Source: a virus
Length of the DNA stretch: 34,525 bases
IMG/VR virus record: IMGVR_UViG_3300037963_001253
Location: 1 to 34,525 of that record
Strand: one strand, 5' to 3'
The notes under the pieces were generated by a model. The model had not been told where the DNA came from, made no database searches, and saw only the letters and a program-made list of their open reading frames with translations. Both the position numbers and the translations under genes were made by a program. Below, in pieces: positions 1-19,000 of this stretch. The stretch's first letter is position 1. Each line of letters opens with the position of its first letter.

Positions 1-1344
1 AGCTGATGTACCTGATGTACCTGTCGTACCTGAGGTACCACTTGTTCCATCATCTCCATCATCTCCACTACTACCGGACGTACCAGAAGATCCACTAATT
101 CCACTACTACCACTTGTACCTGTAGTACCGCTCGTACCTGAAGTACCATCATCTCCAGTATTACCTGAAGAACCTGATGTACCAGATGTCCCAGTTGTAC
201 CACTACTTCCACTAGTTCCTGTCGTTCCACTAGTACCACTTGTACCATCATCACCTGAGGATCCACTTGTACCAGATGTCCCATCAACACCAGTTGTACC
301 ACTAGTACCAGACGTGCCACTAGTACCAGATGTTCCATCTACTCCAGTTGTTCCTGAAGTACCCGATGTTCCACTTGTACCTGTTGTGCCTGAGGTACCA
401 GCTGTTCCACTTGTACCACTCGTTCCATCCTCTCCTGAACTTCCAGAGGTACCAGACGTACCATCTTCACCTGTAGTTCCAGATGTACCACTCGTTCCAC
501 TAGTTCCATCTTCTCCTGAGGTACCGGATGTAGCTGAGGTTCCAGATGTACCAGAAGTACCAGAGGTAGCCGAAGTACCACTAGTTCCCGATGTACCTGT
601 TGTACCACTTGTACCATCATCACCACTAGTCCCTGATGTCCCACTTGTACCATCTTCTCCAGAAGACCCTGAACTTCCACTTGTGCCACTAGTACCACTG
701 CTTCCACTATCACCACTACTTCCACTAGTACCAGGTGTACCAGATGTACCGCTAGTTCCATCTATTCCAGAAGTTCCGGTTGTTCCACTGGTTCCACTAG
801 TTCCTGTAGTACCTGAAGTTCCATCGTCTCCAGATGATCCACTACTACCTGATGTACCACTTGTACCGGTAGTACCAGATGTGCCACTTGTAGCTGAGGT
901 GCCTGAAGATCCACTGGTTCCAGATGTACCAGAGCTACCACTTTCTCCACTTGTACCTGTAGTTCCACTTGATCCACTCGTACCAGATGAGCCAGACTCA
1001 CCTGAAGAACCGGACGTACCAGAGGTTCCATCATCACCACTTGAGCCTGAGGTACCAGAAGTTCCTGAACTACCGCTATCACCACTAGTTCCTGATGTTC
1101 CAGGAGTACCAGATGTTCCAGACGTACCAGTCGTTCCACTTGTACCATCTACACCTGTTGTACCTGATGTACCAGAACTACCACTAGTTCCTGAGGTACC
1201 AGATGTGCCATCCTCTGCACTTGTTCCACTTGTGCCTGACGTTCCAGACGTACCACTACTTCCAGTATTACCTGAGCTTCCTGAAGTACCGGAAGTTCCA
1301 GATGTACCTGAAGTTCCATCTACACCAGGATCTCCTTTATCCCC
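1..1344 (-). repeat. Collagen-like block E (at least 149 triplets, runs off the window)
   Basis: Residues about 1125 to 1572, continuing past position 1. G-T-S dominates, with acidic triplets (G-D-D, G-E-D, G-V-D, G-I-D) spaced through it. Gly-to-Ala changes are visible at 1-3, 529-531, 568-570, 892-894 and 1216-1218. Confidence 0.9.
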
Positions 1345-4300
1345 TGTTACAACAAAACATACTATAATGTCTTCACCATTTGTTAGGGCACTACCACCCT
1401 GTGCTTCATTGATAACTGGTAGAGTCCACCATGCTCCATTATCAGTAAGGTTATTATTTATTGCAAATAGAATAAAATCTCCTGAGTCATCTTTATCAGA
1501 TAATCTGATGTGACCTTTTACAGCTGAAGTAGAACTTTGTATTGTTTCTAGGAATGACTCAATATCATTACTGTCATCATCTGTTTGACTGATTGCTATT
1601 TGTGTAGCTGAAGTTTGTGTAGAGTTATTTAATCTTATATTACCTGTTCCTGGATTAGCAATAGTTGTATTAGTGCTGAATGTATAATCAAAACATGCAC
1701 CACCAAAGTTACCATCTGCTCCAGAGGTTCCTGCTGTACCAGAACTACCTGACGTTCCAGATGTTCCACTCGTACCAGCATCTCCACTAGAACCACTAGT
1801 CCCTGAAGTACCACTAGTTCCTGAGCTTCCATCTTCACCTGATGAACCACTAGTTCCAGCCGTACCACTTGTACCTGAAGAACCACTCTCTCCACTAGAT
1901 CCACTAGATCCACTTGTACCGTCTATACCACTAGTACCTGTTGTTCCCGAAGTCCCACTAGTACCTGATGTACCATCGTCCCCACTACTACCAGAAGTTC
2001 CAGCAGTTCCACTTGTACCAGAACTACCGTCTTCACCACTAGAACCACTTGTACCTGATGTTCCATCTTCTCCACTAGTTCCTGTTGTACCACTTGTTCC
2101 ACTGGTACCACTACTTCCATCGTCTCCACTAGACCCACTTGTACCAGCTGTACCACTAGTACCACTTGTGCCATCTATTCCAGATGTACCAGTTGTACCA
2201 CTAGATCCAGAGCTACCACTGGTTCCAGAAGTTCCATCATCTCCAGATGTACCATCCTCACCAGAACTACCACTGCTTCCACTTGTACCACTAGTACCAG
2301 TAGTTCCAGACGTAGCTGATGTACCAGAAGAACCACTTGTACCAGCCGTTCCACTACTACCACTTTCTCCTGAACTACCACTTGTACCCGATGTTCCACT
2401 AGTTCCATTTGTACCACTTGTTCCATCTATACCAGAACTTCCACTAGTACCACTAGTTCCGTCATCACCAGATGAACCTGCTGTACCTGAGCTTCCACTG
2501 CTACCTGCAGTTCCACTAGATCCAGAGCTTCCAGAGCTACCAGATGTTCCCGTTGTACCACTAGTACCATCTTCTGCAGACGTACCACTTGTACCACTTG
2601 TTCCGGAAGTACCATCCTCAGCTGATGTACCACTCGTTCCAGATGTACCAGATGTACCGGTTGTACCTGATGTAGCACTACTACCTGAAGTTCCACTAGT
2701 TGCACTTGTACCTGATGATCCTCCTGTACCACTTGTACCAGAGGTTCCAGTTGTACCTGACGTACCTGAGGTACCAGAACATAACCCATTAACTCCTACC
2801 GATCCACCATTGTCAATAGTAGGTAGAGCTTTAGCACATACATCTGTTGCATTTCCTTCGGATACAGTAATAGTTTGGGATACGTTTGCACAGTCTACAT
2901 AGTCTGCATCACAATCACCTCCACCATTTGGACATGACAGGTTATAACTTATACAGCTACCACCAGATGTACCGGAAGTACCACTTGTACCTCCTGATCC
3001 ACTAGAACCAGAAGTACCCGAGGTACCTGATGTGCCAGACGTACCAGATGTACCATCAATACCTGATGACCCACTCGTACCTGAAGAACCTGAAGAGCCT
3101 GAAGTACCTGTAGTACCAGAAGTTCCTGCAGTGCCTGATGTTCCAGATGTGCTGCCAACCGATACACCCACTTGCTTTATACTGAATATAGCTGAAGGTG
3201 AAGCTGGTCTATTATATCCAGCTGATGAAGCAGATGTAGCGAACAACTCAACACTTGCATTACTAGAAGCAAAGAATAACTCTAAATAGTCACCTGCTTC
3301 TAATATTAGTAGATAAGGAGTAGAAGGCATGTAAGTAGAACCAGTTAGTAAAGTTTTCATTCTATCTTTACGAGCCAGATCTACACCATTCTTCTTGATC
3401 CATATATCTATTTCAGGATTAGCAGAATCAGTAGTTTCAGCTTGTATTGTGTAAGATATTTCATACACACCATTGTGTACAATTCTTACCTGTTGATTAA
3501 CATCGAGAACAATACCGTTCTCTAATTCTGTTGTTTGAAATGTAACAGCTGTTGGAGTATTAGCTGCTGGTTGAGCATGATTTATATTGGATGAATAAGC
3601 TGCATACCAGTTTGCTATAGCAGCACCTGATGATCCATCAGCACCACTACTACCTGAACTACCAGACGTACCTGTTGTACCAGCAGTCCCACTAGTACCA
3701 GCAGTTCCTGAGCTACCAGCTGTACCTGAAGTACCTGGTGTTCCACTTGTTCCAGCTGTCCCAGCTGAACCAGATGATCCACTAGTTCCTGACGTACCAG
3801 CTGTACCACTCGATCCTGTAGTACCACTTGTTCCTGTGGTTCCTGATGAACCTGCCGTACCACTACTACCAGGAGTACCACTGCTTCCAGAGCTACCACT
3901 CGTACCAGTTGTACCTGATGTTCCTGTTGTTCCAGAGGTACCACTAGTACCACTAGAACCATCACCACCTGTTGCACCATCTAAGTTTACACAGAACGTA
4001 GTGTATGTTCCTGATCCTACACATGTAGTAGGTGCTGTAAATGTTAGAACTCCTGTTGTTGAATTGTATGATATAACTTCGCACTCTTGATAGTTATTTA
4101 CATCATGTGCAAGTATAATAGATTGTCCAGGAGTATATGCTAAACCTGTGCAGATAGTTAGTGTACCTGCTTGACATAGAGTAAAACCAGGACTAGAAAC
4201 AGTAAAGCAGCATTTATAGAAGTCTCCATCCTCACCAGATGTACCACTTGTCCCAGAGGTACCTGTTGTTCCACTAGTACCAGAACTACCAGGAGTACCT

Positions 4301-4716
4301 GACGTTCCAGCTGTACCAGATGTACCACTTGATCCACTAGTACCAGTGGTACCAGAACTTCCACTTGTTCCAGAAGTTCCACTTGTTCCTGATGTACCAG
4401 AGGTTCCAGTACTACCCGAGGTACCAGCTGTAGCACTTGTACCAGATGTACCAGACGTTCCTGAAGTAGCAGAAGTACCTGATGAGCCTGCACTACCAGA
4501 GGTACCTGAGGTTCCTGAGGTACCACTAGATCCATCCGCACCAGCACCTGAACATAGAACTTTATCTATCTTCTCGAGTGCTTGTTCTACAGTCATGTTT
4601 GTCATGACTCCAGAGCATACTAGGTTTGGGCCCTCATAGAACACACAAGCTGCACTTAGTGTTATGGGACAAGGATTAGCTACACAAACTAACTTGTTAC
4701 TACTTTTTTTACTCAT
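1..4716 (-). CDS. Giant collagen-like (Gly-X-Y) tail fibre protein, 3' end outside window
   Basis: The reading frame starts at the ATG at 4716 and stays open for 1572 codons to the window edge. I checked every in-phase triplet and found no stop. The N-terminus (residues 1-56) is Cys-rich with a C-V-F-Y-E-G motif, resembling the start of the 130-residue protein encoded just upstream. The rest alternates five collagen-like blocks (residues about 59-164, 247-364, 525-586, 648-1005 and 1125 to the edge), mostly G-T-S with G-S-S, G-E-D, G-D-D and G-I-D triplets, with four globular inserts (165-246, 365-524, 587-647, 1006-1124). Proline is almost absent. Phage collagen-like proteins are usually fibres, and a receptor-binding or side fibre is the likely role (inference). 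Base composition is far more GC-rich than the neighbours because GGN and ACN codons dominate. The gap to the upstream stop is 17 bases. No Shine-Dalgarno sequence is visible, as is usual in Bacteroidota. Confidence 0.9.
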   Translation of the reverse strand, partial: MSKKSSNKLVCVANPCPITLSAACVFYEGPNLVCSGVMTNMTVEQALEKIDKVLCSGAGADGSSGTSGTSGTSGSAGSSGTSATSGTSGTSGTSATAGTSGSTGTSGTSGTSGTSGTSGSSGTTGTSGSSGTSGTAGTSGTPGSSGTSGTTGTSGTSGTSGEDGDFYKCCFTVSSPGFTLCQAGTLTICTGLAYTPGQSIILAHDVNNYQECEVISYNSTTGVLTFTAPTTCVGSGTYTTFCVNLDGATGGDGSSGTSGTSGTTGTSGTTGTSGSSGSSGTPGSSGTAGSSGTTGTSGTTGSSGTAGTSGTSGSSGSAGTAGTSGTPGTSGTAGSSGTAGTSGTAGTTGTSGSSGSSGADGSSGAAIANWYAAYSSNINHAQPAANTPTAVTFQTTELENGIVLDVNQQVRIVHNGVYEISYTIQAETTDSANPEIDIWIKKNGVDLARKDRMKTLLTGSTYMPSTPYLLILEAGDYLELFFASSNASVELFATSASSAGYNRPASPSAIFSIKQVGVSVGSTSGTSGTAGTSGTTGTSGSSGSSGTSGSSGIDGTSGTSGTSGTSGTSGSSGSGGTSGTSGTSGGSCISYNLSCPNGGGDCDADYVDCANVSQTITVSEGNATDVCAKALPTIDNGGSVGVNGLCSGTSGTSGTTGTSGTSGTGGSSGTSATSGTSGSSATSGTTGTSGTSGTSGTSAEDGTSGTSGTSGTSAEDGTSGTTGTSGSSGSSGSSGTAGSSGSSGTAGSSGDDGTSGTSGSSGIDGTSGTNGTSGTSGTSGSSGESGSSGTAGTSGSSGTSATSGTTGTSGTSGSSGSSGEDGTSGDDGTSGTSGSSGSSGTTGTSGIDGTSGTSGTAGTSGSSGDDGSSGTSGTSGTTGTSGEDGTSGTSGSSGEDGSSGTSGTAGTSGSSGDDGTSGTSGTSGTTGTSGIDGTSGSSGSSGESGSSGTSGTAGTSGSSGEDGSSGTSGTSGTSGSSGDAGTSGTSGTSGSSGTAGTSGADGNFGGACFDYTFSTNTTIANPGTGNIRLNNSTQTSATQIAISQTDDDSNDIESFLETIQSSTSAVKGHIRLSDKDDSGDFILFAINNNLTDNGAWWTLPVINEAQGGSALTNGEDIIVCFVVTGDKGDPGVDGTSGTSGTSGTSGSSGNTGSSGTSGTSGTSGTSAEDGTSGTSGTSGSSGTSGTTGVDGTSGTTGTSGTSGTPGTSGTSGDSGSSGTSGTSGSSGDDGTSGTSGSSGESGSSGTSGSSGTTGTSGESGSSGTSGTSGSSGTSATSGTSGTTGTSGTSGSSGSSGDDGTSGTTGTSGTSGTTGTSGIDGTSGTSGTPGTSGSSGDSGSSGTSGTSGSSGSSGEDGTSGTSGTSGDDGTSGTTGTSGTSGTSATSGTSGTSGTSATSGTSGEDGTSGTSGTSGTTGEDGTSGTSGSSGEDGTSGTSGTAGTSGTTGTSGTSGTSGTTGVDGTSGTSGTSGTSGTTGVDGTSGTSGSSGDDGTSGTSGTTGTSGSSGTTGTSGTSGSSGNTGDDGTSGTSGTTGTSGSSGISGSSGTSGSSGDDGDDGTSGTSGTTGTSGTSA
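1345..1701 (-). other. Fibre globular insert 4 (residues about 1006-1124)
   Basis: About 119 residues opening A-C-F-D-Y-T-F, then N-P-G-T-G-N-I-R-L-N-N, a stretch with T-Q-I-A-I-S, then H-I-R-L-S-D-K-D and N-G-A-W-W-T-L-P-V, returning to collagen through T-G-D-K-G-D-P-G. This is the only place with a Lys/Pro collagen triplet of the classical kind. The pattern (P-G-x-G-x-[IL]-R-[LF]-N-N ... W-x-x-[IL]-x-V) is a recurrent domain of collagen-like phage fibres. Confidence 0.65.
1702..2775 (-). repeat. Collagen-like block D (about 119 triplets)
   Basis: Residues about 648-1005, almost all G-T-S, G-S-S, G-E-D, G-D-D, G-I-D and G-E-S. Gly is replaced by Ala at 2701-2703, 2674-2676, 2623-2625, 2578ff and 2314-2316, mostly in T-S-A-T-S-G or D-A contexts clustered towards the N-terminal part of the block. 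Confidence 0.9.
2776..2958 (-). other. Fibre globular insert 3, small Cys-rich domain (residues about 587-647)
   Basis: About 60 residues with eight Cys including C-I-S-Y-N, Y-V-D-C and D-V-C-A-K. The spacing D-C-x4-Q-x-[IV], then G, then C matches the C-terminal domain of the partial protein at the right edge (D-C-N-G-Q-Q-Q-V ... Y-C-T). This type of domain is common in fibres of Bacteroidota phages in my recollection. Function unknown. Confidence 0.55.
2959..3144 (-). repeat. Collagen-like block C (about 20 triplets)
   Basis: Residues about 525-586, the shortest block, G-T-S and G-S-S rich with one G-I-D. It begins after an irregular G-S-T-S and ends G-T-S-G-G-S-C, with a short G-S-G-G interruption. 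Confidence 0.85.
3145..3618 (-). other. Fibre globular insert 2, C1q/TNF-like jelly-roll candidate (residues about 367-524)
   Basis: About 158 residues starting near I-A-N-W-Y-A. It has N-G-V-Y-E-I-S-Y followed by I-D-I-W-I-K-K-N-G-V-D, and later A-G-D-Y-L-E-L-F-F. A strand with G-x-Y-x-I-x, then a W-x-x-K-N-G turn, then a G-D-Y-L-x-L strand, is the order found in C1q/TNF-like jelly rolls, which are known to follow collagen stalks. Good match in pattern; fold is inference. Confidence 0.55.
3619..3978 (-). repeat. Collagen-like block B (about 39 triplets)
   Basis: Residues about 247-364. Gly-X-Y with G-T-S, G-S-S, G-T-A, G-T-T and G-A-D triplets, between globular inserts 1 and 2. Ala at the Y position (G-T-A) is more common here than in the other blocks. 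Confidence 0.9.
3979..4224 (-). other. Fibre globular insert 1 (residues about 165-246)
   Basis: About 82 residues with several Cys, starting D-F-Y-K-C-C-F and containing Y-T-P-G-Q-S and S-Y-N-S-T-T-G, ending in V-N-L-D-G-A before the next Gly-X-Y block. This pattern (Y-T-x-G-Q-S, then S-Y-N-x-x-T-G, then x-V-N-L-D-G) is familiar to me from inserts in collagen-like phage fibres, probably a small beta-rich fold. The fold assignment is inference. Confidence 0.6.
4225..4542 (-). repeat. Collagen-like block A (about 35 Gly-X-Y triplets)
   Basis: Residues about 59-164 of the fibre. The period is three codons with Gly first, mainly G-T-S. Gly is replaced by Ala at 4468-4470 and 4432-4434. The block starts straight after the Cys-rich head and ends in G-E-D-G-D before the first globular insert. 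Confidence 0.9.
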
Positions 4717-4733
4717 CTATATGGTAATATATA

Positions 4734-5126
4734 TTAATGTACTATTTTAAGTAAGTCTCCTGTACGATATACTTCACCTACGGATAATCCAGCTAGCAGA
4801 GCAGCAGCATTATTAGCATACTCAGGTGCACCTGCTTCAGGTACAGTTACAACAACTTCCCAATCAGAAGCTGTTCCAGCTAAATTGGCAACATAAACTT
4901 TACCGTCAGCACTTTGATCTACATGTATCTTTCCTACATAAGGTGCAGGACTAGAAGGTGTAGAGTCACTATATGAAGGTGCTAAGTTAGTGTTTATGTT
5001 ACTGAGGATTAACTGTAGATCATCACCAGGATTTATAACAGCATTACCTAGGTAAGCACCATTATATATAATGCACTCTGCATTTTGTAATACAGCACAT
5101 GTGGGACAAATTTCAGCGGTTCTCAT
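4734..5126 (-). CDS. Small Cys-rich fibre-associated virion protein (130 aa)
   Basis: A 130-residue protein with an N-terminal C-P-T-C pair (C7, C10) and C18-I-I-Y-N-G, followed by a G-D-D-L-x-L-I-L-x-N-I-N helix-like segment. The same order (C-P, then C-[IV]-x-Y-x-G, then a hydrophobic L-x-x-I segment) opens the collagen-like fibre encoded next. The C-terminus, A-G-L-S-V-G-E-V-Y-R-T-G-D-L-L-K-I-V-H, is a motif I associate with small structural proteins of Bacteroidota phages. It lies between the nuclease-containing 1625-residue gene (21 bases away) and the fibre (17 bases away). A fibre cap, adaptor or short tail spike is plausible (inference). The start is the first ATG after an AT-only leader without a Shine-Dalgarno sequence. 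Confidence 0.8.
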   Translation of the reverse strand: MRTAEICPTCAVLQNAECIIYNGAYLGNAVINPGDDLQLILSNINTNLAPSYSDSTPSSPAPYVGKIHVDQSADGKVYVANLAGTASDWEVVVTVPEAGAPEYANNAAALLAGLSVGEVYRTGDLLKIVH

Positions 5127-5147: not shown

Positions 5148-8100
5148 TTATCTTCTATTACTTTCTTGGATTGTTACATCCATTTCTTCAGCCCATTCTG
5201 GGTCAAAGATAGCCAACCAAGTGACTAATGATTTACTTACAGGGAACATCTTCATCAAATACTTTACAGGTAAAGCATCTTCTCTTACATCAGCAGGAGA
5301 TTTGTCTAGGTCACTGAAGTCTATTCCTGTAACTTCTTCTCCAAAGTGTTCCATAAACTTACCAAACTCTGACAGTAAGTTCAATGATGGTATGATACCA
5401 CCTCTTAGAACACCACTCCATTCTGCTGGGTTATAGAAGAATAAGAGCTCGTCTGTAAATCTTCTAAGTACTTTTCTGTAGAATCTAAATCTATTTCTAG
5501 TAGCTTTATCTTCATCCTCTGCTGGCTCTAGGAATCCTGTAACCTGTAGCATTCCTAATAATACAGCTATTAGTGCTACCTCTTGTAGAGTTTTTTGGAG
5601 GTTTACTCTTACTAGATCATAGAAGTCATCTCTTGACATATTTAACTTCTCACCAGTACGAGCTTCATATTGTTGGGCATATTCAACAAACATTTTATCC
5701 ATGTCTTTTATGCCTTGTTCTGTAGCTTTGATAACTCTTATAGCTTTGTTAATATTTGGAATAACACCAAAGGCCATGAAGTTGCCAAAAAATAGTCTGG
5801 CTCTACCTATGTCATATCTTTCTCCAGTAGTTAGACCATTCTCATCTACTCTTACATTGAAGTCATCTCCTACCTTTCTAAACTCTCCAAAACGTGTGTC
5901 TGCTAGTTTAGGAATCCAACCTTTGAATACCATCATAGACTTAGTCCAGATATTCAAGTTGGCCTTCATTTGGTCAAACTCTGTAAATCCACCAGTAGCT
6001 GATCTAGCTATTGTTCTACTTAAGTTTGTTAGACGTTGTAGTTCATCTCTGTTGTTCTCTGAAAGATCTAGTCCAGGAATCTCTACCTTTCCTTCCTTGT
6101 TTAGTCTTTTAGTTACAGCCATGGACTTAGTCTTCTTAAGCTGATTTATTTCACTGTTTATTTTTCTTTCTAGTGTTCTGTATTGTCTAGGATTGTTGTA
6201 TCTTCCTTTGTATTTATCTTTTACATATTGTCTGATGTTTACAATCTTACCATCTACAATCATAGTATTTTCTAGAAGGGTCAAGAACAAAGATCTTTCC
6301 AAATGTAATTCAGGTTGTCTAAATGCTACAAATAAATAATCCTGAAAGTTATCAGCTATCAACGATCCTCTAGTTAATCCAGACTTCTGCAGAGCTTCAT
6401 AAGTAGGACTATCTTTGAGAGGCATAAATATTTCCATCAATTGTACGAATGCTTTTCTCTCATCGTTGTTTGCAAATTTATTTCCAATAAGTTTCTGCTC
6501 GTTCTTGATAAATTCTCTAAAGCTATAGTATACTCCTGACTGTGCAGCCATTTGTAAGTTAGCACCAAACAAGTTTACAAAACCAGATATAGGCTCTAGT
6601 CCTAATGTTTTAGCTTGGAATGCATTATTTAGCACTTCCATAAATTTAATTATAGATAGATTACTTCCTTGATCAATCTCACCAAAAAGTTCTTTACCTG
6701 TAATCTGTTTTGATATTGCATTTATTCCTCTTTTTATACCTGCTGTTGGTACACCAAAGTCTTGCCCATCTGCAGGATATGGATTATCATACATGATGTT
6801 TTGAACAAACAGATCAAAGAATCTAGAGTTATCTTCATTACCTGTATCCACTACAAACTCTCCACCTCTCTGTACAGGTTTACCAAACCATCCTGTTTTG
6901 TAATGATTCTTAGCTCTAACTACAGTTCTCATTAGATTAACCTGTCCTTCTATCTCAGACATATACTTATACTTATTCATGTGTTGAATGTAAAGTATCT
7001 GATTTTTAAAGAACTCAAAAGATACATCACTATCGTCATACGTACCATCTTCGTTCTGACTAAAGTCTCGAGTATAGTAGATAGGAATTGCATTCTCTAC
7101 CTCACCAGTTATTTCATTTATCGAACCATAACCTACATCATCAGCTCTTCTTTCTAATCGAGCTCCAAAGTTTTTCATAGCACTGAGTCCAAAGTTCCAG
7201 GCCATAGATTCAGCAAATCCTTTTCTTATATAAGGCAAGAATGTACTAGCTATTTTGTTTTGTAGATAGCCCATGTCTCTTGCTTTCTCATTCATGTCCT
7301 GTAAAAAGTTATACAGCTCAAAAAGCTCTGGATCTCCTTTTATCTCTAGGTACTCTTTTGTCTCCCATTTTGGTAGAGGGTGTCTTTTTATTACGTAGTT
7401 ATTGAATCCATTAAACTGGGGATTACTAAGATCCCACTTTTTCTTCATATCACTTATAAGCTTATCCCTAAGAGCTTTATCATTATCGTATATATTATTA
7501 TACTTTTCAATTTCTTTTGCTATGATTTTGTCAGCTTCTTTTTGATATGCTACTACATCTACATTTTCTTTTATCCATCTTTTACTTCTGTTTCCTTCTT
7601 CTGCATTTCTATCAACTTCTTCATAGAAAGTTTTTTGATATCGATAGATTAACTTATTTACTAAACCACCCTTAGTGTCTCTCTGATACAACTTTTGTAC
7701 AGTTTGGAGCAAGTTACCCCCTCTTTTTTCTAGTTTCTTTCGTATAGCGAGCAACCTGTTCACATCTACCAATGCACCAGCTTGTGCTTTTATTTGTGCC
7801 TTTCTAGCAAGTCTAGTTAATATTCTAACAGAAGGTAGAGGTAATTCAGCTGCCGATCTAAATAATCCCATTATTCCTTTGAGCACACTTTGTGGACTTG
7901 TTAGACCTGTTACACTATTTCTTAGACCCATAAACCTATCAGCGAATACACCAGCTAGCTCATTTATTTTATCATTACTCTGTTGTATACTCGTTTGCTT
8001 CTTACTAATCTCTGTCATGTATTTATCTTTCTCCTCTCTAGTCAAATCGGAACCTTCTATAATAGGTGCTATGTCTGTAGCAATTCTATCAAAAGCAGTT

Positions 8101-10025
8101 ACTGTATCTAAGTACGTTCTTATTTGATCTGCAAAGTCAGATAGCTGACCATCTTCAAAGCTTTGATCAGTGGGTGGTCTATCTTTATATGTAGTTTCGT
8201 ATTCAGCTATAATGTTTTCTCCTTCAGACTGTATAATATTTACAGCATCAATCAACGGTGCAATGTTTTGATTAACTTGTGCCTGACGAATAGCTAGCTT
8301 TAAGATATTAAGACGATCTCTTTTACTTGATCTATCAAGTTCATCTGTTGGTCTTGTCTTTTCTACCTGTGTATATACTGCATTTAGTTTCTTAATAAGT
8401 CTATCTAAACTTTCTATACCTGTACTCTCAGTTTTTTCAGAGACTGGAGTTAGAGTTAAGTCTTCTAGTTGTGTTGGATTTACACTACCTATAGCTATGG
8501 CATCTAGTTTTAAATCTGATGTAGGGTCCTGGAACCTATCTCTCTTTAGTTTTAGCTGAATAGGAATAGCTCTGTTCTTTCCTATTTTCTTTACTCCATA
8601 GTTCTCAAGGAGCATCTTTTTATACTGACCAAGTTGTACTCCGTAAGCACCTTGTTTGAACCATGCTACATCTTTTGCACCAGGTGCAATACTCATAAAC
8701 TTCCAATCATATATGTTAGCTGTTCCGTCCTCTTCTACTATAAGTAAGTCAACCGTACCAGCTTCATCATTAATAGGATCATACATAATTGCTTCAGAGA
8801 AAACTAGTGGGTTCTTTCCATCTTTAGAAAACTCTTGTATAAGATCGGTGTAATACTTTTCTAGTTTAGTATATACAGCAGCTCTCTTGTTATCTTTTAT
8901 ATTAGGAGCAGGTCCTGGAGTAACTCGTTTAGTTCCATCAGAATTAAAGAATCTAGCATGAATCTCTTCAAACATTTCATGGAACTCTGTTCCTAACTGT
9001 CTTTTAACTTCGTTATCTTTTACTTGTTGTGGAGTAAATGATGTCCCACGAAACTTAGATCTATACCAAGCTTTTACTCTATCAGTTACTCTTTTCTTCA
9101 CTCTCTTGTATACACCATCTATAAGAGCTTCGTAGTAATTATTTGCATCCTCTTCACCTTGTAGAGGGGGACTTACTTTTTCATTTTCATCAACAACCTT
9201 TCTAACATTATTCTTTGTGTTCAGTATTTTTCTTTGTATTGCTGCTTGTTGATCACTTATAGAAAAGTATATATTAGCCTGTCCTACTTCATCTACGTCC
9301 AGCATTGCTGTATCAACATACTCACCGTCTATCTCTCCACTTACTATTTTCTTTCCTACCTCTCTAAATATATCCACTCCAGATTTTTTGTAGAACATTC
9401 TAAACCAATCGGTTATTTTATTCCACATGTTTCTGAAGAATCCTACAGTTTGTGCTGGTACCTCATTTTCTGCTGCACTCTCTTCATTTAGTTCTTGTTG
9501 TACTATTTTTGCAATTAGTTTATCTGCTGCCTCTTTCTTTATCTTTCTGATATTAGGTCTACCATTAGGCAGTTGATACACAGGATTGTCTTTATATAAT
9601 TCAAATGTTTCTTTGTATATAGGAAGATCTCCTATCTTAGATATCATTTGTGTAACTAGTTGTGGATCTGTTTTCTCTAGTATCTCAGTAGCCACATGCA
9701 CCATCTCCTCTGTTACTTCCTCATTAGTAGCGTTGTTAGAAACTGCAATAATTTTAGCAGTTACATCTGCTATAGCTCTAACACCTTTGAAGTCAATTGC
9801 AGGATTGTCTTTTACATAGTCTTCAAGGTTACTTACCTCTACTCCCATTTTATCAAGTAACTCATACACTTTAGGTGTAATAGAGTTAGCACCTGTAGGA
9901 CTAGAGTATTCTTGAACTGGAACATCTCCATCATACTGGTCCCACAAGAAGTACGCTAAGTCTTCACCTCTTGATGCTACAAGCTGGTTCCATTCTGGTA
10001 ATCTTATGTTAGGACATTTAGCCAT
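5148..10025 (-). CDS. Giant virion cargo protein with PD-(D/E)XK nuclease domain (1625 aa)
   Basis: The ATG at 10025 shares its A with the TAA of the upstream RNA polymerase gene (TAATG), which points to coupled translation. Residues about 190-240 hold an amphipathic stretch (F-F-R-N-M-W-N-K-I-T-D-W-F-R) that resembles one following the zincin-like part of the polymerase protein. Residues about 345-445 carry a RecB/Cas4-like PD-(D/E)XK nuclease pattern: G-T-E-F-H349-E, S-E411-A, G-T-V-D426-L-L, then D440-W-K442. The remaining 1100 residues are helical and charged, without a motif I recognise. A hydrophobic helix sits at about 1479-1497 (V-A-L-I-A-V-L-L-G-M). In crAss-like phages, proteins of this size next to the RNA polymerase are carried in the virion. 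The nuclease could act on host or phage DNA after entry (inference). Confidence 0.8.
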   Translation of the reverse strand: MAKCPNIRLPEWNQLVASRGEDLAYFLWDQYDGDVPVQEYSSPTGANSITPKVYELLDKMGVEVSNLEDYVKDNPAIDFKGVRAIADVTAKIIAVSNNATNEEVTEEMVHVATEILEKTDPQLVTQMISKIGDLPIYKETFELYKDNPVYQLPNGRPNIRKIKKEAADKLIAKIVQQELNEESAAENEVPAQTVGFFRNMWNKITDWFRMFYKKSGVDIFREVGKKIVSGEIDGEYVDTAMLDVDEVGQANIYFSISDQQAAIQRKILNTKNNVRKVVDENEKVSPPLQGEEDANNYYEALIDGVYKRVKKRVTDRVKAWYRSKFRGTSFTPQQVKDNEVKRQLGTEFHEMFEEIHARFFNSDGTKRVTPGPAPNIKDNKRAAVYTKLEKYYTDLIQEFSKDGKNPLVFSEAIMYDPINDEAGTVDLLIVEEDGTANIYDWKFMSIAPGAKDVAWFKQGAYGVQLGQYKKMLLENYGVKKIGKNRAIPIQLKLKRDRFQDPTSDLKLDAIAIGSVNPTQLEDLTLTPVSEKTESTGIESLDRLIKKLNAVYTQVEKTRPTDELDRSSKRDRLNILKLAIRQAQVNQNIAPLIDAVNIIQSEGENIIAEYETTYKDRPPTDQSFEDGQLSDFADQIRTYLDTVTAFDRIATDIAPIIEGSDLTREEKDKYMTEISKKQTSIQQSNDKINELAGVFADRFMGLRNSVTGLTSPQSVLKGIMGLFRSAAELPLPSVRILTRLARKAQIKAQAGALVDVNRLLAIRKKLEKRGGNLLQTVQKLYQRDTKGGLVNKLIYRYQKTFYEEVDRNAEEGNRSKRWIKENVDVVAYQKEADKIIAKEIEKYNNIYDNDKALRDKLISDMKKKWDLSNPQFNGFNNYVIKRHPLPKWETKEYLEIKGDPELFELYNFLQDMNEKARDMGYLQNKIASTFLPYIRKGFAESMAWNFGLSAMKNFGARLERRADDVGYGSINEITGEVENAIPIYYTRDFSQNEDGTYDDSDVSFEFFKNQILYIQHMNKYKYMSEIEGQVNLMRTVVRAKNHYKTGWFGKPVQRGGEFVVDTGNEDNSRFFDLFVQNIMYDNPYPADGQDFGVPTAGIKRGINAISKQITGKELFGEIDQGSNLSIIKFMEVLNNAFQAKTLGLEPISGFVNLFGANLQMAAQSGVYYSFREFIKNEQKLIGNKFANNDERKAFVQLMEIFMPLKDSPTYEALQKSGLTRGSLIADNFQDYLFVAFRQPELHLERSLFLTLLENTMIVDGKIVNIRQYVKDKYKGRYNNPRQYRTLERKINSEINQLKKTKSMAVTKRLNKEGKVEIPGLDLSENNRDELQRLTNLSRTIARSATGGFTEFDQMKANLNIWTKSMMVFKGWIPKLADTRFGEFRKVGDDFNVRVDENGLTTGERYDIGRARLFFGNFMAFGVIPNINKAIRVIKATEQGIKDMDKMFVEYAQQYEARTGEKLNMSRDDFYDLVRVNLQKTLQEVALIAVLLGMLQVTGFLEPAEDEDKATRNRFRFYRKVLRRFTDELLFFYNPAEWSGVLRGGIIPSLNLLSEFGKFMEHFGEEVTGIDFSDLDKSPADVREDALPVKYLMKMFPVSKSLVTWLAIFDPEWAEEMDVTIQESNRR
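8691..8993 (-). other. PD-(D/E)XK nuclease domain within the 1625-aa protein
   Basis: Residues about 345-445. Order of conserved positions: H349 in T-E-F-H-E, E411 in F-S-E-A, D426 in T-V-D-L-L, then D440-x-K442 in Y-D-W-K-F. This H ... E ... G-x-x-D-L ... D-x-K arrangement is the one of the RecB/Cas4-like branch of the PD-(D/E)XK superfamily. All core catalytic residues are present. No Fe-S cluster cysteines are seen. Confidence 0.75.
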
Positions 10026-13000
10026 TATGATTTACAAACAGTTTTTAAGATCTGACCTATCTGGTCTTCATTATATCCTATCTCAGATAGCATTTGTGAA
10101 GTGATCTGTTCTTTAGTGAATATTTGATTTGGAACTTTTCCTAATCTTACCATGTTTCCTTGCATAGTTGTCAACCATGGACGTTCTGCAGTGCTTCTTT
10201 CATCTTTTCCTTTAGCAGGTTTAGATTCAAATACCTCTATTATATCTTCATCTTTTCTTTCTTCTGCTTTTAAAAGACCATTATCAAATACTGAAGGTCT
10301 AGATGTTTCATAATACTCTTGAGCTCTAAAACCATCACCCAAAGCATTGATATGCTTATAAACAAACATCTCTATATCGTCACCACTCTTTCTAGGAACT
10401 TCAACTGTGTAAGGTAAACCTGGAGTTCCATCAGGATTTTGTTGTCTAGTTTTTACAAACAGTCCTTTGTTTATAAAAGAGAAATCTCCTCTTAGTGCCA
10501 TCTCTTTTCTTTCTTTAGCTGTGAAAGTTTTATTTGGCCAAGTGTAAACAATATAGTCATTGCCCAGAGTTTCAAATGACAATGGTAATTGTACCACTTG
10601 AGGGATCTTTCCTTTTGCAATTTGACTCTTTACATTCTTTGGAAGCCACTCCATTCCTGGATTATTTTGAAATCTTGTGCTTCCTCCTCTTCCTTGGAAA
10701 GTTACTGTAGGTGCTTTTATTGTAGGAACTATACTACCATCTGACCAGTTATTCCTCTGGAACATGCCCAGTTCATAGAAGTTGTTCAAGTTACTAATAT
10801 TTTCTAAATTAGACAAGGATGAGTTGTAGAGATTTTTAAAGTCTTCATATGGTAGAAGAGAAGTAAATGATATTGGTGATGTATCTAAACCTGATTGTAA
10901 GACAGCTGTTATAACTATATCTTTGTATAATGAATCATCTCCTAAGAAGTTTCTTATTTGCTCAAATCCAAATATAACAGAGTTCTGATCATATGTTTTT
11001 GTCTCATTATTTCTCAACTGAAGGTTGATTGGAGTGTTTCCAGGACGCTTAGATGGATTGATTTCTAGCATTCTAATAACTTGATTATTATATAATGGAT
11101 GACTAGCATCAGATAGAACATCATCTACAAACTTTTCTACTCGAGCTGCTACGTTCTTCCCATCATTCTCTAACAAGTATTGTGATAATAGAGTATTAAG
11201 CTGTCCATTAGTCTGAATCACATAATCAAATAAAGAATTTACAGCACGTCTAGATATTTTTATAAACTCTTTGTCAAAAGTTCTTAGAACCCATGGCATT
11301 AAAGTGTTTTCTAATACTGATCTACTTCTTAATTGATCTGATTTAAGGAAGTTTGATATACCTTCTCTTGATTTAATTATAGATTTAAGAGTTTCTCCAA
11401 CAAACGTGTTATTCATTACAGCTTCTGGTATAGATGTTATGCTGTTTGTGGATAAATCATATGCTACAAAACCTATATTATATAATTTATTTGCTGCTGC
11501 ATACTGCATTTGTTTTTTAAATACTAACATAGGATCATTAAAAGTAGAAGTATCCCAATTTAATCCTTGTGTTAATGTAAATATCTCTCTAGCCTGTTGA
11601 TATACATTTTGAAATGAAAATATTATTTTTCTTTGTTGTAGCTTTTCTTTGTCAGTAAATTGCTTTTTACCTACCATTTTTGATAACATAGACTCGTTAA
11701 TCTCTTTACCTGTATCAATTTCATCTTGTTCTTTTTTAGTAAGCTCTCTACCTATATCATACTTTGGACTCGAAAGTAAACCATCTCTAATTGATCTGTT
11801 ACCTAAGTAGGAGTATCCTCTATTGTTTACTTCTCTTATGAAGTCCTGAACAATAGGTTGATTCATAAAGTCAGCAACCACTTTGATAGGAACACCAGCT
11901 CTTATTAAATATAACCACGTGGGAGCTGTTTGAGGTGTTGCACCTAACTCCATAATCCATGGCCCTCCAGCTATATCTACATATCCATCTATAAATTGTC
12001 CGTTGATCTTAGATATAAACTCACCGTTTGCATTTTTTCTACCGGATATACTCACCCACTTATCTATTGTATATTCAAACTCAGTACCTTCGTTTAAAAC
12101 TACAGATTGATTTATGTCTACATTATTTTTAGAAGCAAATGGAATATTAATTGCCGGTACTAATACAGGTATGCTTTGTAATAAAGCTAAGTTAACTTGA
12201 TTTACTGCAGCTACACCAATACCTTTTTTACCTGCAACAAAAGAATAACGCAGCCTAGACGTAAACTGAGAGTTGAGTAGATTACTTACCTTTTCATAAT
12301 CAAATGGTTCTCCAAATCTTTTAGTTACTATCTCCTTTGATATGTTTTCTAGTTGACTTGCGTCATTAGGAGCTGATAGTCTTTCAAAGTTTTCAGGAAG
12401 CTCTATAAGATTTTGTAGAGTTTCTATGTACTCATTTTCTAAGGATTGTGTGTACAGCCTATCTACCACAGTTTGTTTTATTCCTTTCTCACTTAAGTCT
12501 AACATGAAGTCATCTTTAACATCTTCTTCTAACAACACTTCTCCAAACATTTCAAATATTAAACTATCTGTTACATCTCCTCCATCTCGGAATAACTCTA
12601 TTTGTTCGTTTAACTGTTGTTGCTGAGACTTAGTTAACAAAGCTCCATCTTCCCATAACTCTTCAATCTTTGCTTTTGCTTCTTCACCCTTTCCAAAGTA
12701 AGGAACTGTCTGCAACTCACCGAATCTATAGTACATATTCTTGAAGTACATGAATAGTTTATCGATATCAAAGTCAGATCCCACCTTCTTTACTAATGCT
12801 TCAGGAACTACTACTTGATCTCCAAACTCTCTAGGTAGGAATTGTTTTATTTTTATAGAGTCAATAGAGTTTTGTGCTTGTGTAGGAATACGGAAAGCTA
12901 CACCACGTAATGCTTTTTGTCCTTCCTCTGTATTGTTCAAGTAGTCTAGTAAGTCTTTATCACTAAGACTACTATTAAACCAACGTCCCACCATAACTTC

Positions 13001-16000
13001 CATAACTCTTTTACCATCTTCGTCCTTATAGAAACCAAGCACGTCAGATACATATCCTTTCTTGCCGTTTATCTCTACTAATTTAACACCTTGTTCAAAT
13101 AGTGCTGATGGTATTTGTACTGCTTGTCTTCCACTTATCTTTGGACGAACAACATTCTTTTGTACTATTGAATATAAAATGTTTCGTACTTGATTGTATG
13201 CAGGTGTGCCTTCAATAACAACATCTCCATTTAGGAAACCGTCAAGAGCAACAGATACATTATCATTTGTTTCTCTTTTAAATATTTCTTCACGTAAAGT
13301 TTGAGTTGCTGCAGTTAAATCTTCAACTACTAACTTACCATCCTTCTCCACAATACCTAACCTTTTCATTACGGTATTCATTCCGTCAATAGTTAGTTCA
13401 TCTAGTAATTCTTTGTTTTGATTAGCTAAGTTATATATAGCAGAAGCTTTGAGTCTTTGTTGTTTATTAAGATTCAACCATTCCTCAAGTGACCCTGTAT
13501 AATCTACTGGAACACCACTGTCAAATAAATCTAGAGTTGCTAATTTAGTAATCTGACTAGCTCTTGTAACTCTACCATCATCTTTAGATGGAACCTCTTG
13601 TTGTAAACTGATAGCATTAAATGGTACGTTAATCACATTACTATAAGCAGTGTCATTGAATGATCCGTCTTCATTATATGTTTCATGTAATTCCTCAGCA
13701 CCTACTTTTCTTCCTGACTTATATATTATATAGTCTATGTCTTCACGTTGCATCTTCTCATACAACTTTATATTATTAGATGCAGGATCTAGTTCTTTAA
13801 TTATTCTATATGGTAATGCATACAATGCATATTTATCTAGAACAGGGTTATTAAAAGTTGATAGCACCCCACTTGAATCTAGTTTAGATCCTGATACAAT
13901 AGGTTTAAGTGGTTTATATGCACTCTTAACATCAGGATTACCTTCTTCAAGAAGATCTCTTTCTCTTTGAGTTAATAATTGTTTTTTATCTCTTTTCTCA
14001 TATGCTATATCGTATGCATATTGTTTCTCTTCTTGTGGGTTCCAGTCAGATACTCTTATTCTAAAGTTACGATATGCCTTGAAAGATATAATACCAGCAC
14101 CGTCTGTCTTCTCAAAAGTTTCATAACCAGGTAAATCACTAATGCCTATAACATCTGCATGTGTTGCAGTTTTAAAATAGCTTCTTGTAAAGTCTGTGTA
14201 TCCTATGCTGCCTTCTGCATGATCTCTATTCCATAACTCTTCGGCTTTACTATTCCACATAGTATCACTAGATAATAATTGTCTTGGTGATAAGAAACTT
14301 TTAGAACGTTTAGTTATGTCTTTGTATGCATATGGATCACCATATAATACTTTGTACATCTCCATTTGGTTAAGCACAAAGTTAATTTCTCTATATGATA
14401 ACTTTCTAAACACTTGGTCCTTAGTAAGTCCTGAAAGGTTACCTTCTATTGCAGGTAGGCTATAGGTATCCCTCGTCTCTTCTGGAATGGTTACAATAAT
14501 ATTATTTGCTGTAAGAGTATTGATAGTGGTCTGAGTCTGTTTGTTGGTAAAAGCTAGAAACGCATCTATGATTTGAGTAGCGGATGCATCATAAACTTCT
14601 TCTGCAGTTAAATTATTATCTTGTATATTTTGTTGTACCTCTTGATATAGTTTAGGATCGTACTCATTCAAAATATCTTTAAAAAATCTAAGGTCTTTAC
14701 TATCAAATATAGATTCTACTCTTCTTTCTTGTCTAGCTAAATTTACTTCATCTATAAAATATCCGAATATAATTGTTTGCAGTTGAACTTTTGGACCAAC
14801 CATATCACGCTCAGACACATTATTACCCATGAATAGAGTGTGCTCCATACCGGAATCAGCAGGAACTAAATTCTTATATATACCTTGAAGATTTAGATTT
14901 ATTTCTTGTATTAATGATTCTCTATAGGTAAGCTGAGATGATTTTTTATTTCTACCACTGGACCTGTTTGCTATACCACCTGCATAACCAGGTTTAAATA
15001 GAGGGTCCTCAAAGATATTCTTCTCACCATCTTCATCAAAGTATTTATTTAGGATTACAGAGTTTTTAGAGAATGTATCTGTAACTAAATATCCATATGG
15101 AGTCTGAGATAATTCCTCTAAGGTGTCTACATTTTGTAATGTATTATATATCTCTGAAGGTACATTTGGTCCTATGTGAGTTTGTGTTCTCTCTCCCTGT
15201 ACGTTAAAGAATGTACTGCTTACTTCTGGATTGTCTAGCTTTACTCTAATTACTGCTAGATCCATAAGTCTCTTGTTCATGTTTAATGATTTGGTAGAGA
15301 AGAAAGCTATCTCCTTAGTGTTTGCAATACTAGCTTTAATTCCACTAACTGCAGCATTAAATGATTTCTTTTCATCATAGGATAAACTATTGTACTCTTG
15401 TTGACTGAATATTATTCCTAGATCCTTAAGTAGACTCAATCTGCCACCCATAGTTCCCATATTGTAACTATTAAGTTTTCGTATGTTTGGATTGTACTTA
15501 CCATCCTTTTCTACAAATATTCCTCTACCTTGTCTAGATAAACTTACTATAGAGTTTAAATATCCTTGACGTATTTGACGTGAAGCAGAAGCTATATCTG
15601 CATCACTTACAGATACTTCTCCGTTTTCTAGAATGTTTACTACTTTTACTTGTGGAGATTGTTTCTTAAAAGTTTTAAATAAAGCATCAATTAATCTTAG
15701 TTGATGTTGTTCTGTTATATTCTCTAAACTTACACCACTTGTATAGTCTAGTCCTGTAATACGTTTATATAGAGTTCTATAGTTAGGATCATTTTCAGCT
15801 ATACTTTGTAGCCTAGTCAACATATCTTTTGTGTCAGTAGATGAACTTAAATTATCTAGAAGAGTTACATACACCTGAGCCATAGGTAAGAGCTTCACAC
15901 CATTTACTTTACTAGGAACTCTCTGAGCAAGTCCATTGCTTCCAATAGTTACTCTTGGTACTGTAGCTAACATTAATCTAACAGCTGCATTTGTTTTTCT

Positions 16001-19000
16001 AAACCCATCTATCTTTCTAGCGTCAAAGTTATATCCTTTGTTAGATAGATCATTTTCTACACCCTCCTTATCTACCTGTATAGAGTCATTCTCATCAAAA
16101 GTAATACTGTAAGCTTGTAAATACTCTTGATGTCTTTTTGTAATACTATCCCAGTTCTCTGAGATTTGTGTCATTAAGGTTATTGTTTTTTCTATCAACT
16201 CATCAACCTCTTCTTTGTTCTGCTCATTCTTAATAGAATCATATGCATCGATTTTAACTTTTAGTTTCTCGAGTGCTTTTATCTTTAACTTATCATACAG
16301 TTCCGTCTTATTTATATCTTGATAGTCAAACACACTTTTGTTTTCTAGAAGTAAATCTGTAAGTGTATTATATGTCATGTCTTCTAATAAGTCAACCTGT
16401 ACTTCACCACTTAAATTAGTTACAACTCTAAACACAGCACTAGACTCAGGAATTACCTCTCTTATCTCCCTCATTGCTAAGGCCCTAAAGGTTGGAAGTT
16501 GAGCAAAGTCTCCTGTATCTATTCTATTAAATAACTCATCTCTTAATTCTACAGCTTTCTTCTGAGTAGGATTTATAAACCAACTTTCAATAAAGTTTTT
16601 TAAGCTCTTAAATATTCTAGCTAGAAAACTTTCTTTTGGTTTCTTCTTATCTTGTATATAATCTCTAAACTCTTCTGCTAATTGTTCCCTTATTTCATCT
16701 CGAGTAGCATCTTCAAATTTAATTACTCGTCCACTAGGTCTGTCTACAAAAGTTCCTTTACGAGATCTGAAGGCTAAGTCTTGTTGTATTTTTTCCTTCT
16801 CAGTAAGATACATTGCATAAACAGCTTCGAATGCCTCGTGATATGGTGTACCCACCTCTGCATTTTCATAGACATACATAGCATTGTCTTGGAACATACC
16901 CCATGCAGTTTTTCCTCCTGACCTAATTATATTTTTAACTCTGGCTAAAGGTACTTGAGGTAAGTTTTTTTCCATCCAACTACGAACATCTTTCCAGTTC
17001 TCCTCACTCATCGCTTGAACATCTTTCTCAACCATCTCACGAAGTAAAGGTTGATCTCCTCCAGTCAGTTTTTTGTTTAGCATAGCTTCAACATCAGATA
17101 TAGATGCAGACTTTATTTTACCTTGTTGTTTCTTTTCAAATCTAGCATTATCTTTTTCTGTTTGCTGAGCTATTGCTAAATCTAAAACAGCTTGTCCTGT
17201 AGCAGAAGTAGCTCCTCCCTCTAAAACTTTTCCCGTTTTTAAATTTGTTATGTTTGCTCTATCAAGATTAAAATCAACTGAGTATCTAGTACCTTTATAA
17301 GTTACAGTTTCAACACTACTAGTTTGCTGTGGAGCAGGTTCTTCTTTTTTAGTTACAAGACGTTTAGATCCTGCAGGTCCAAATCTAGCTTCTAGGTCTT
17401 TTTTCTCTTGCTCACTTAATTCAAAGCCTGTTGACATGGCTGTATCAAATGTATTTTGTTTGGCAAGGTTTGGTTGAATAAAGTTATAGATACTAGCCTT
17501 TAGTATTTTTTTACCATCTTTACCTTCAGGAAACTTGTTTAAATACTCTTGTACTTCTTGAGGTCTAAAGTCAACTTTAATTTTTTCTTCATAGTTTTGT
17601 GCTGTTACATCAGAATCAGTAACTACAAATCTAATTCTAGGACCATTTTTAATCTTAAAAAAGTTAGCAGTTTTACCATCAGCAGCATTAAACTGACTTG
17701 ATGTAACTGGTGCAGTTTTAATAAACTCTTTTCTAGGTGGAGTTACTTCTTTTATAATATAGTCATCAATAGTAGATTGATCTACGAAGTATATACCTTT
17801 TCTGTTAACTACATTATCATCAGCTGACTCAAGCTGTGTTGTTAAAGGTATTTCAAAGCTCATTCTCGTTGCTCCCTCAGTTTTTCTATCTACTAGGTCA
17901 ACTACATCAGAAAGCATGAACGACTGATAATTAGGCCACACTATACTTTTTACATTACCCTCTGGTGAGACTGATATTATTTGCTCAAATGGTTGATTTA
18001 TATCCTCTGTATATTGTTTGTTAACATTAATGTACATGTTTTCTAGTGCACCAACGATCAACGACTTGTTTGCTTCTATGTCCTTAGGAGTAAAAGTAAA
18101 CTGTGCAGTAGGACCCACTCTTAAAACTAATTTACTATAGTTAAGTCCTGGGAATCCTTCTACCTCTCTTACAACTTGTCTTTCAAAGAATACACTATTC
18201 TGACCTACATCTTTTCTTTTACCTTGAGCATCTTTTGGTATACCCCAATACGTAACACCCTTTAAGAAGTTTAGTAGTCTTACAGCTTCGTTACTAGTAG
18301 CTCCTGCAACTGTATCTACCACTTCTCTTGAAAGACCGAGTAGTGCATCATATATCGATTCAGCTTCTTCTTTTAAAAACTTTCTATTCTGTAATTTGTA
18401 TAAGCCACTAGGTACATCTAAGTATACACTTCCAAGAGGAGAGTTATATACAGATGTTCCTTTCTCTATAGTTTTGTTTGTAGTAGGAATGTTTAATAGG
18501 ACTTTCTTCTTTAAATCTTTTCTACTAATTAAATCTGCAGAGAAAACACTGTTAGGTTCACCATTCTTATTCATTTCACCAATACCAGAAGAGGCTATTA
18601 TTTCAAAAGGAGAAGGAACCAGTACACGTTCTAGTTGATCTTTATGCCATGCAGCGTATTGTTTAGTAATTTGATCCTTCACTTCTTGTGGTGTGTTCTC
18701 TCTAAACATATCACCATTTCTAAAACCAGGGGCAGGCATAAACTGATAAATAGCTTTATCTAATAATATCTCTCCCTCTGGAATAGGTAAACCATCCACA
18801 CCAACTAAATTACCTGCACTATCGATCATAACCATTGCAATAGCAGTGTCTTTATACTTATCTATAAGTTCTTGATTGTTATCTAAAAGTCTTTCTATTA
18901 CTCCCTCTAATCTTTGGTTCTGAGTTTTGAATGTTACGTATACACCACGAATATCTTTTCTGTTTGGAAACTTCCACAGGTTTGCTCCAAACTGATTTGC

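Follow-up and report, generated by a model that had tools for sequence, protein, structure and literature searches.

The collagen-like fibre gene at the left edge of the window, that is, the whole 34,525-nt stretch analysed, which forms the left end of the 111,707-base (111.7-kb) IMG/VR record IMGVR_UViG_3300037963_001253, stands out more through its association with a protein O-glycosyltransferase than through its length. The fibre lies tail-to-tail with a gene whose product belongs to the TibC/AAH family, and enzymes of this type were found to co-occur with fibres built of Gly-Thr-Ser (GTS) triplets. Judging from these sequence comparisons, we consider a modular trimeric fibre, with rods O-glycosylated by the adjoining phage enzyme, to be the fairly probable product of the gene.

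The minus-strand frame is open from position 4716 to the window edge (1572 aa), as the preliminary description had stated, and consists of five Gly-X-Y rods broken up by four globular domains (Table 1). The rods comprise 366 triplets, equivalent to 1098 residues, in a count that tolerates single Gly-to-Ala breaks (n = 11); the earlier figure was about 1090. The most frequent triplet is GTS (n = 176), with mainly Thr in the X position (237) and mainly Ser in Y (262), and only 6 Pro residues are present, in agreement with the original characterisation of the rods as mostly GTS with almost no Pro. The length of roughly 300 nm proposed for a fully folded helix is likewise close to the approximately 314 nm calculated here, of which approximately 128 nm would come from the longest block alone (447 residues, truncated at the window edge). 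The claim of unusual length did not hold, the protein being ordinary among its GTS relatives, which reach 3709 aa and 940 triplets. Stabilisation by charged triplets was also dropped, since the rods contain 69 acidic residues (Asp plus Glu) against one Lys and no Arg.

Table 1. Features of the fibre locus in the window (residue numbers refer to the encoded protein).
Feature	Coordinates	Strand	Basis or remark
Fibre gene, N-terminal 1572 codons	1..4716	-	Collagen-like; continues at record positions 109016-111706 (-)
N-terminal module, residues 1-58, probable virion attachment	4543..4716	-	Conserved at 48-90% among relatives
Rod 1, residues 59-166, 36 triplets	4219..4542	-	Triplet count
Globular domain 1, residues 167-246	3979..4218	-	Present in 52 fetched loci, overlapping copies of the same contigs included
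Rod 2, residues 247-366, 40 triplets	3619..3978	-	Triplet count
Globular domain 2, residues 367-524, predicted C1q/TNF/BclA-like jelly roll	3145..3618	-	Structure model
Rod 3, residues 525-587, 21 triplets	2956..3144	-	Triplet count
Globular domain 3, residues 588-647, Cys-rich	2776..2955	-	Translation and comparison with fetched loci
Rod 4, residues 648-1007, 120 triplets	1696..2775	-	Triplet count
Globular domain 4, residues 1008-1124	1345..1695	-	Comparison with fetched loci
Rod 5, residues 1125 to edge, at least 149 triplets	1..1344	-	Triplet count
Small conserved gene just 5' of the fibre (MRTAEICPTC...)	4734..5126	-	Marks this locus in relatives, whether or not they have collagen

The 176 GTS triplets are written in 43 different 9-nt encodings, and both Ser codon families are used in the rods (AGY, 156; TCN, 181), which indicates conservation at the level of the protein pattern and not a low-complexity accident. 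The fibre matches the Pfam Collagen family (PF01391, E 2.8e-136) and the collagen-like phage PHROGs 5073, 6320 and 1806, among others. This family match, the conserved N-terminal module and a predicted C1q/BclA-type trimer domain between rods uphold its description as a collagen-like phage fibre. In genomes that lack collagen, the N-terminal module heads non-collagen proteins encoded at this locus, which is consistent with an attachment module whose shaft can be exchanged. Globular domain 2 was modelled as a monomer with a mean pLDDT of 89.7 from a 25-sequence alignment, and the model resembles BxpB (Z 17.0, 1.7 A over 131) and BclA (Z 15.9), as well as C1q-like domains, the NC1 domains of collagens VIII and X, and TNF-family domains. 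A C1q/TNF/BclA jelly roll is thus predicted with high confidence. Domains of the BxpB, BclA, C1q, NC1 and TNF types are trimeric and several of them cap collagen helices, and the position of the predicted domain between rods supports a trimeric, triple-helical shaft. That the GTS stretches instead form flexible linkers or a polyglycine-II-like bundle seems very improbable: the near lack of Pro would suit such structures, as would the fact that Thr in X and Ser in Y are unfavourable in host-guest collagen peptides, but the strict three-residue periodicity is kept across hundreds of triplets and the predicted trimer domain lies among them.

The check proposed for a stop codon past the left edge could be carried out within the record, since this edge is the end of the record itself and the stop is located in an 896-aa frame at the opposite end (109016-111706, minus strand), which is open on its 5' side, starts with SATSGTSGSSGSSG and represents the C-terminal 896 aa of the fibre. 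Both frames are covered by a single intact one in the relative IMGVR_UViG_3300050343_000122 (locus L017), whose fibre (P0004) has 2625 aa, six rods and 981 triplet residues: our N-terminal part (P0001) aligns with its first part, and our C-terminal part (P0002) with its last part at 51% identity. The two end frames are therefore parts of one gene, and the record is most simply explained as a circular or permuted genome broken within the repeat, where the contigs of several relatives also end. No terminal overlap of the record was found. From the alignment we estimate that the gap accounts for about 145 residues or more, which would give the whole fibre a length of about 2600 aa or longer. Among the fetched loci, the only true relative of the C-terminal part is this same contig (L017/L024); the other tblastn matches were rejected as repeat-on-repeat alignments, and an INPHARED search with this part gave no match. 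The C-terminal part contains repeated VVGxxN-type motifs. Its structure model (799 residues, two-sequence alignment) has a mean pLDDT of 40, and for this reason no fold is claimed for the fibre tip.

The adjoining enzyme (P0003, 1149 aa; record positions 105598-109047, plus strand) overlaps the 3' end of the fibre gene by 32 nt. Its N-terminus matches methyltransferases, residues 618-752 match GT4, and residues 823-1138 match TIGR04414 (hepto_Aah_TibC equivalog; autotransporter strand-loop-strand O-heptosyltransferase) with 278.2 bits, the curated cut-off being 200 bits; the match to TibC has an E of 8e-56. TibC and AAH act on autotransporters, not on collagens. When the catalytic and iron-finger residues of TibC (PMC4358343) were mapped onto 83 distinct phage sequences, the positions of D110, K230 and W305 were invariant and that of T226 was occupied by Thr in 78 and Ser in 5, all four residues being present in P0003. 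The iron-finger Cys 339, 342, 358 and 370 are also all found in P0003; across the phage enzymes three are invariant (83/83) and the fourth is present in 82 of 83, with one gap. Other TibC features are not kept. The adenine-contacting R286 is replaced by Thr in P0003 (residue 1043) and in 57 of the 83 phage sequences, and the beta-hairpin thumb of the TibC dodecamer (F265, V266) falls in a 10-residue gap of P0003 (TibC 261-270, HMMER alignment), suggesting that the donor and the oligomer may differ from those of TibC. The position of TibC P300 is occupied by Ser, as in AAH. An unsystematic look at the phage revealed no ADP-heptose pathway. The epimerase-like gene g54 resembles several sugar-nucleotide families but scores below the cut-off of each, and hence does not settle the donor.

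Association between the enzyme and GTS collagens was found from both sides. Starting from the enzyme, 37 of the 44 loci with at least 4 kb of downstream sequence (out of 74, near-copies included) contain a collagen ORF, nearly always downstream and on the opposite strand; common descent accounts for part of this pairing. The intact relative carries the same convergent enzyme. Starting from 50 of the longer contigs selected by a GTS query alone, TIGR04414 was detected above the cut-off in 27, which include two near-copy pairs and some contigs of 202-373 kb, at distances from the collagen of mostly 2-20 kb and, in two cases, 40 kb. Most of the 23 GTS contigs without the enzyme are fragments, and in the longest of them (120 kb) the part that was read contains only 21 triplets. 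Among 36 unselected contigs picked by meaningless DNA words, the domain occurred in two, exactly those with a GTS-type collagen (65-81% identity to the query; Fisher 0.0016), and was absent from all five whose collagen matches were weaker throughout (36-56%). Within the clade of the phage itself, those near-complete genomes that have the fibre locus contained either both genes (10) or neither (3, two of which have a single weak GTS match that was counted as absent), and never one alone; G058 was excluded because it lacks the neighbouring gene and may miss the locus. On the TerL tree, collagen and enzyme change together at three separate points.

Glycosyltransferases next to phage fibre genes are usually interpreted as modifiers of the host surface (PMC7029224), and the GT4 and methyltransferase domains of P0003 would suit polysaccharide work. 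According to that interpretation, the enzyme would remodel host LPS or capsule in superinfection exclusion and its position near the fibre would reflect a host-interaction region. We regard this as unlikely, given that characterised TIGR04414 enzymes modify protein Ser (PMC4358343) and that the gene follows GTS-type collagens in the unselected contigs and along the clade tree. A different possibility is that the collagen is an ordinary unglycosylated one, whose cohesion comes from its trimer domains and from Thr/Ser hydration, and that the enzyme targets another virion protein, such as g16, g20 or g21, which are encoded in the virion operon and have long Thr/Ser linkers. C1q-type domains can indeed nucleate trimers, the stabilisation of bacterial collagens has been attributed to water networks involving polar residues (PMC8968730), and some enzyme loci have no collagen in reach (L029, L068, L070 and the T4-like phages L089-L095). 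Nevertheless, the presence of collagen predicts that of the enzyme both in the clade and in the unselected contigs, which makes this second explanation quite improbable. Dense O-glycosylation of the fibre, raised as a possibility in the preliminary description, thus finds strong indirect support in a TibC/AAH-family enzyme whose gene converges on that of the fibre and which is statistically associated with GTS collagens.

The TIGR04414 domain is present in only four of 50,697 phage records. In the isolate Microcystis phage Mel-JY01, a GTS collagen frame is located 1.7 kb from such a domain, and in a 735-kb phage sequence a 120-residue collagen frame is found near one. The Mel-JY01 enzyme is annotated as 'methyltransferase FkbM', and the collagen frame is for the most part without annotation or is annotated on the opposite strand. 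Within the open-licence PMC papers, a scope that leaves subscription journals and preprints outside, no description of the enzyme-collagen pairing was found. Regarding the identity of the phage studied here, comparison of TerL with named records gave matches to Leptolyngbya phage Lbo-JY46 (41%), to the Cellulophaga phages phi4:1 and phi17:2 (31%), and to csAssE and phages of the human gut, cr10_1 being among the matches (27-30%). The Cellulophaga and gut phages are crAss-like and, judged from its terminase and from portal and capsid PHROG matches, so is this phage. An enzyme-based scan of genome contigs revealed no relative, and consequently the host was not identified.

In the mechanism that we propose, the protein would be a fibre of a crAss-like tailed phage, probably anchored to the virion by its N-terminal module. 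Five or six Ser/Thr-rich Gly-X-Y rods, with globular domains between them and one C1q/BclA-type trimer domain, would form the shaft, and the large C-terminal region with the VVGxxN-type motifs the distal end. The methyltransferase-GT4-TibC/AAH-type enzyme would glycosylate the rods inside the infected cell, most likely on the Y-position Ser, and its other domains would perhaps extend and methylate the sugar. Ser in Y appears a likelier acceptor than Thr, since Ser, and not Thr, is what the characterised enzymes of the family modify; the genes of these enzymes often adjoin those of their substrates (PMC4358343). The resulting sugar coat would stabilise and stiffen the triple helices and shield the rods from proteases. 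The gene structure, the domain families, the catalytic residues and the co-occurrence with GTS collagens are demonstrated here, and from them we infer the activity of the enzyme, its substrate, site and donor, and the effect on stability.

This arrangement shares elements with several known systems. The match of P0003 to the bacterial autotransporter heptosyltransferases (BAHTs; TibC, AAH; TIGR04414; PDB 4RAP, 4RB4) is at equivalog level, with the catalytic Asp, Lys and Trp and the iron-finger Cys kept, and like the BAHT genes its gene adjoins one for a Ser-rich, repetitive, surface-exposed protein. However, P0003 is phage-encoded and fused to methyltransferase and GT4 domains, its neighbour is a collagen instead of a beta-helical autotransporter, and it departs from TibC at R286, at the thumb tip and, together with AAH, at P300. 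Collagen-like phage tail fibres (PHROG 5073, 6320, 1806) are also long, fibre-like proteins with a Gly-X-Y shaft, but they do not have the nearly pure Ser/Thr triplets, the division into five or six rods by several globular inserts, or the coupling to TIGR04414. The mimivirus collagen system hydroxylates and glucosylates Lys, whereas the phage rods hold one Lys and the enzyme is of a Ser type; the likeness is that each virus would modify its own collagen, as is known for mimivirus (PMC8968730). The BclA-type Bacillus spore collagens, among which BclA is glycosylated (PMC8968730), similarly join a collagen-like region to a C1q/TNF-like trimer domain. In the phage protein, by contrast with BclA, this domain lies between rods and not at the C-terminus, the GTS rods lack Pro, the proposed glycosyltransferase is from another family, and the product would be a virion fibre and not a spore filament.

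The recurrence of the fibre-enzyme pairing in unrelated phages suggests that GTS fibres carry dense sugar coats. Whether a Pro-poor GTS collagen fibre and a TibC-like O-glycosyltransferase fusion constitute a two-part module common to unrelated phage groups, in which dense Ser glycosylation would replace Pro, hydroxyproline or charge pairs, is in our judgement evenly balanced. For biomaterials work, long glycosylated rods obtainable with two genes would be of interest, and the pairing in the isolate Mel-JY01 makes the question testable there. If true, such a module would represent an undescribed way of making viral collagen, would explain how collagens nearly without Pro and Lys hold together, and would give a specific function to a type of phage glycosyltransferase that is usually read as a host-surface modifier.

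The Gly-Thr-Ser (GTS) collagen-like fibre of the window is exceeded in length by those of three relatives, L248 (3709 aa, 940 triplets), L184 (3352 aa, 882 triplets) and L087 (at least 2980 aa, approximately 780 triplets). Long plus-strand frames, those at 2-1513 and 2168-2902 of the window among them, also lie antisense to the GTS repeats and are most simply regarded as shadows of the repeat; in the Microcystis phage Mel-JY01, annotated genes sit antisense to the collagen frame. The 1625-aa protein adjoining the fibre gene has a weak relative in gut phage cr108_1.

At four of the enzyme loci (L027, L038, L040, and L078), a second collagen, which overlaps the 3' end of the enzyme gene, is located between this gene and the GTS fibre, and differs from the latter in composition (GNT, GAT, GPQ, and GAK triplets).

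Features in the window, the phage record and related loci
Feature	Location	Strand	Remarks
1625-aa protein	window 5148-10025	-	borderline PDDEXK nuclease match; PHROG exonuclease match
Giant ORF, 4273 aa	window 10025-22846	-	
1374-aa ORF	window 29312-33436	-	sub-threshold Peptidase_M91 match
Antisense frames	window 2-1513, 2168-2902	+	
Mel-JY01 collagen frame	PP395634.1 1-2298	-	
g16, g20, g21	record 46006-47142, 48934-54362 (L002)	-	structural region
Second collagen	L027 13443-14777		
Second collagen	L038 12942-14708		
Second collagen	L040 9153-11171		
Second collagen	L078 12948-14966		

Alternatively, the substrates of the glycosyltransferase may be g16, g20, and g21, proteins of the same phage bearing long Thr/Ser linkers (TTTTSTSTST...). 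In the T4-like phages L089, L091, L092, and L094, GT4 and TIGR04414-type genes are separate ORFs adjoining a tail-sheath-like gene. No collagen was found in the stretch read of these phages, whose enzymes may act on a different virion protein.
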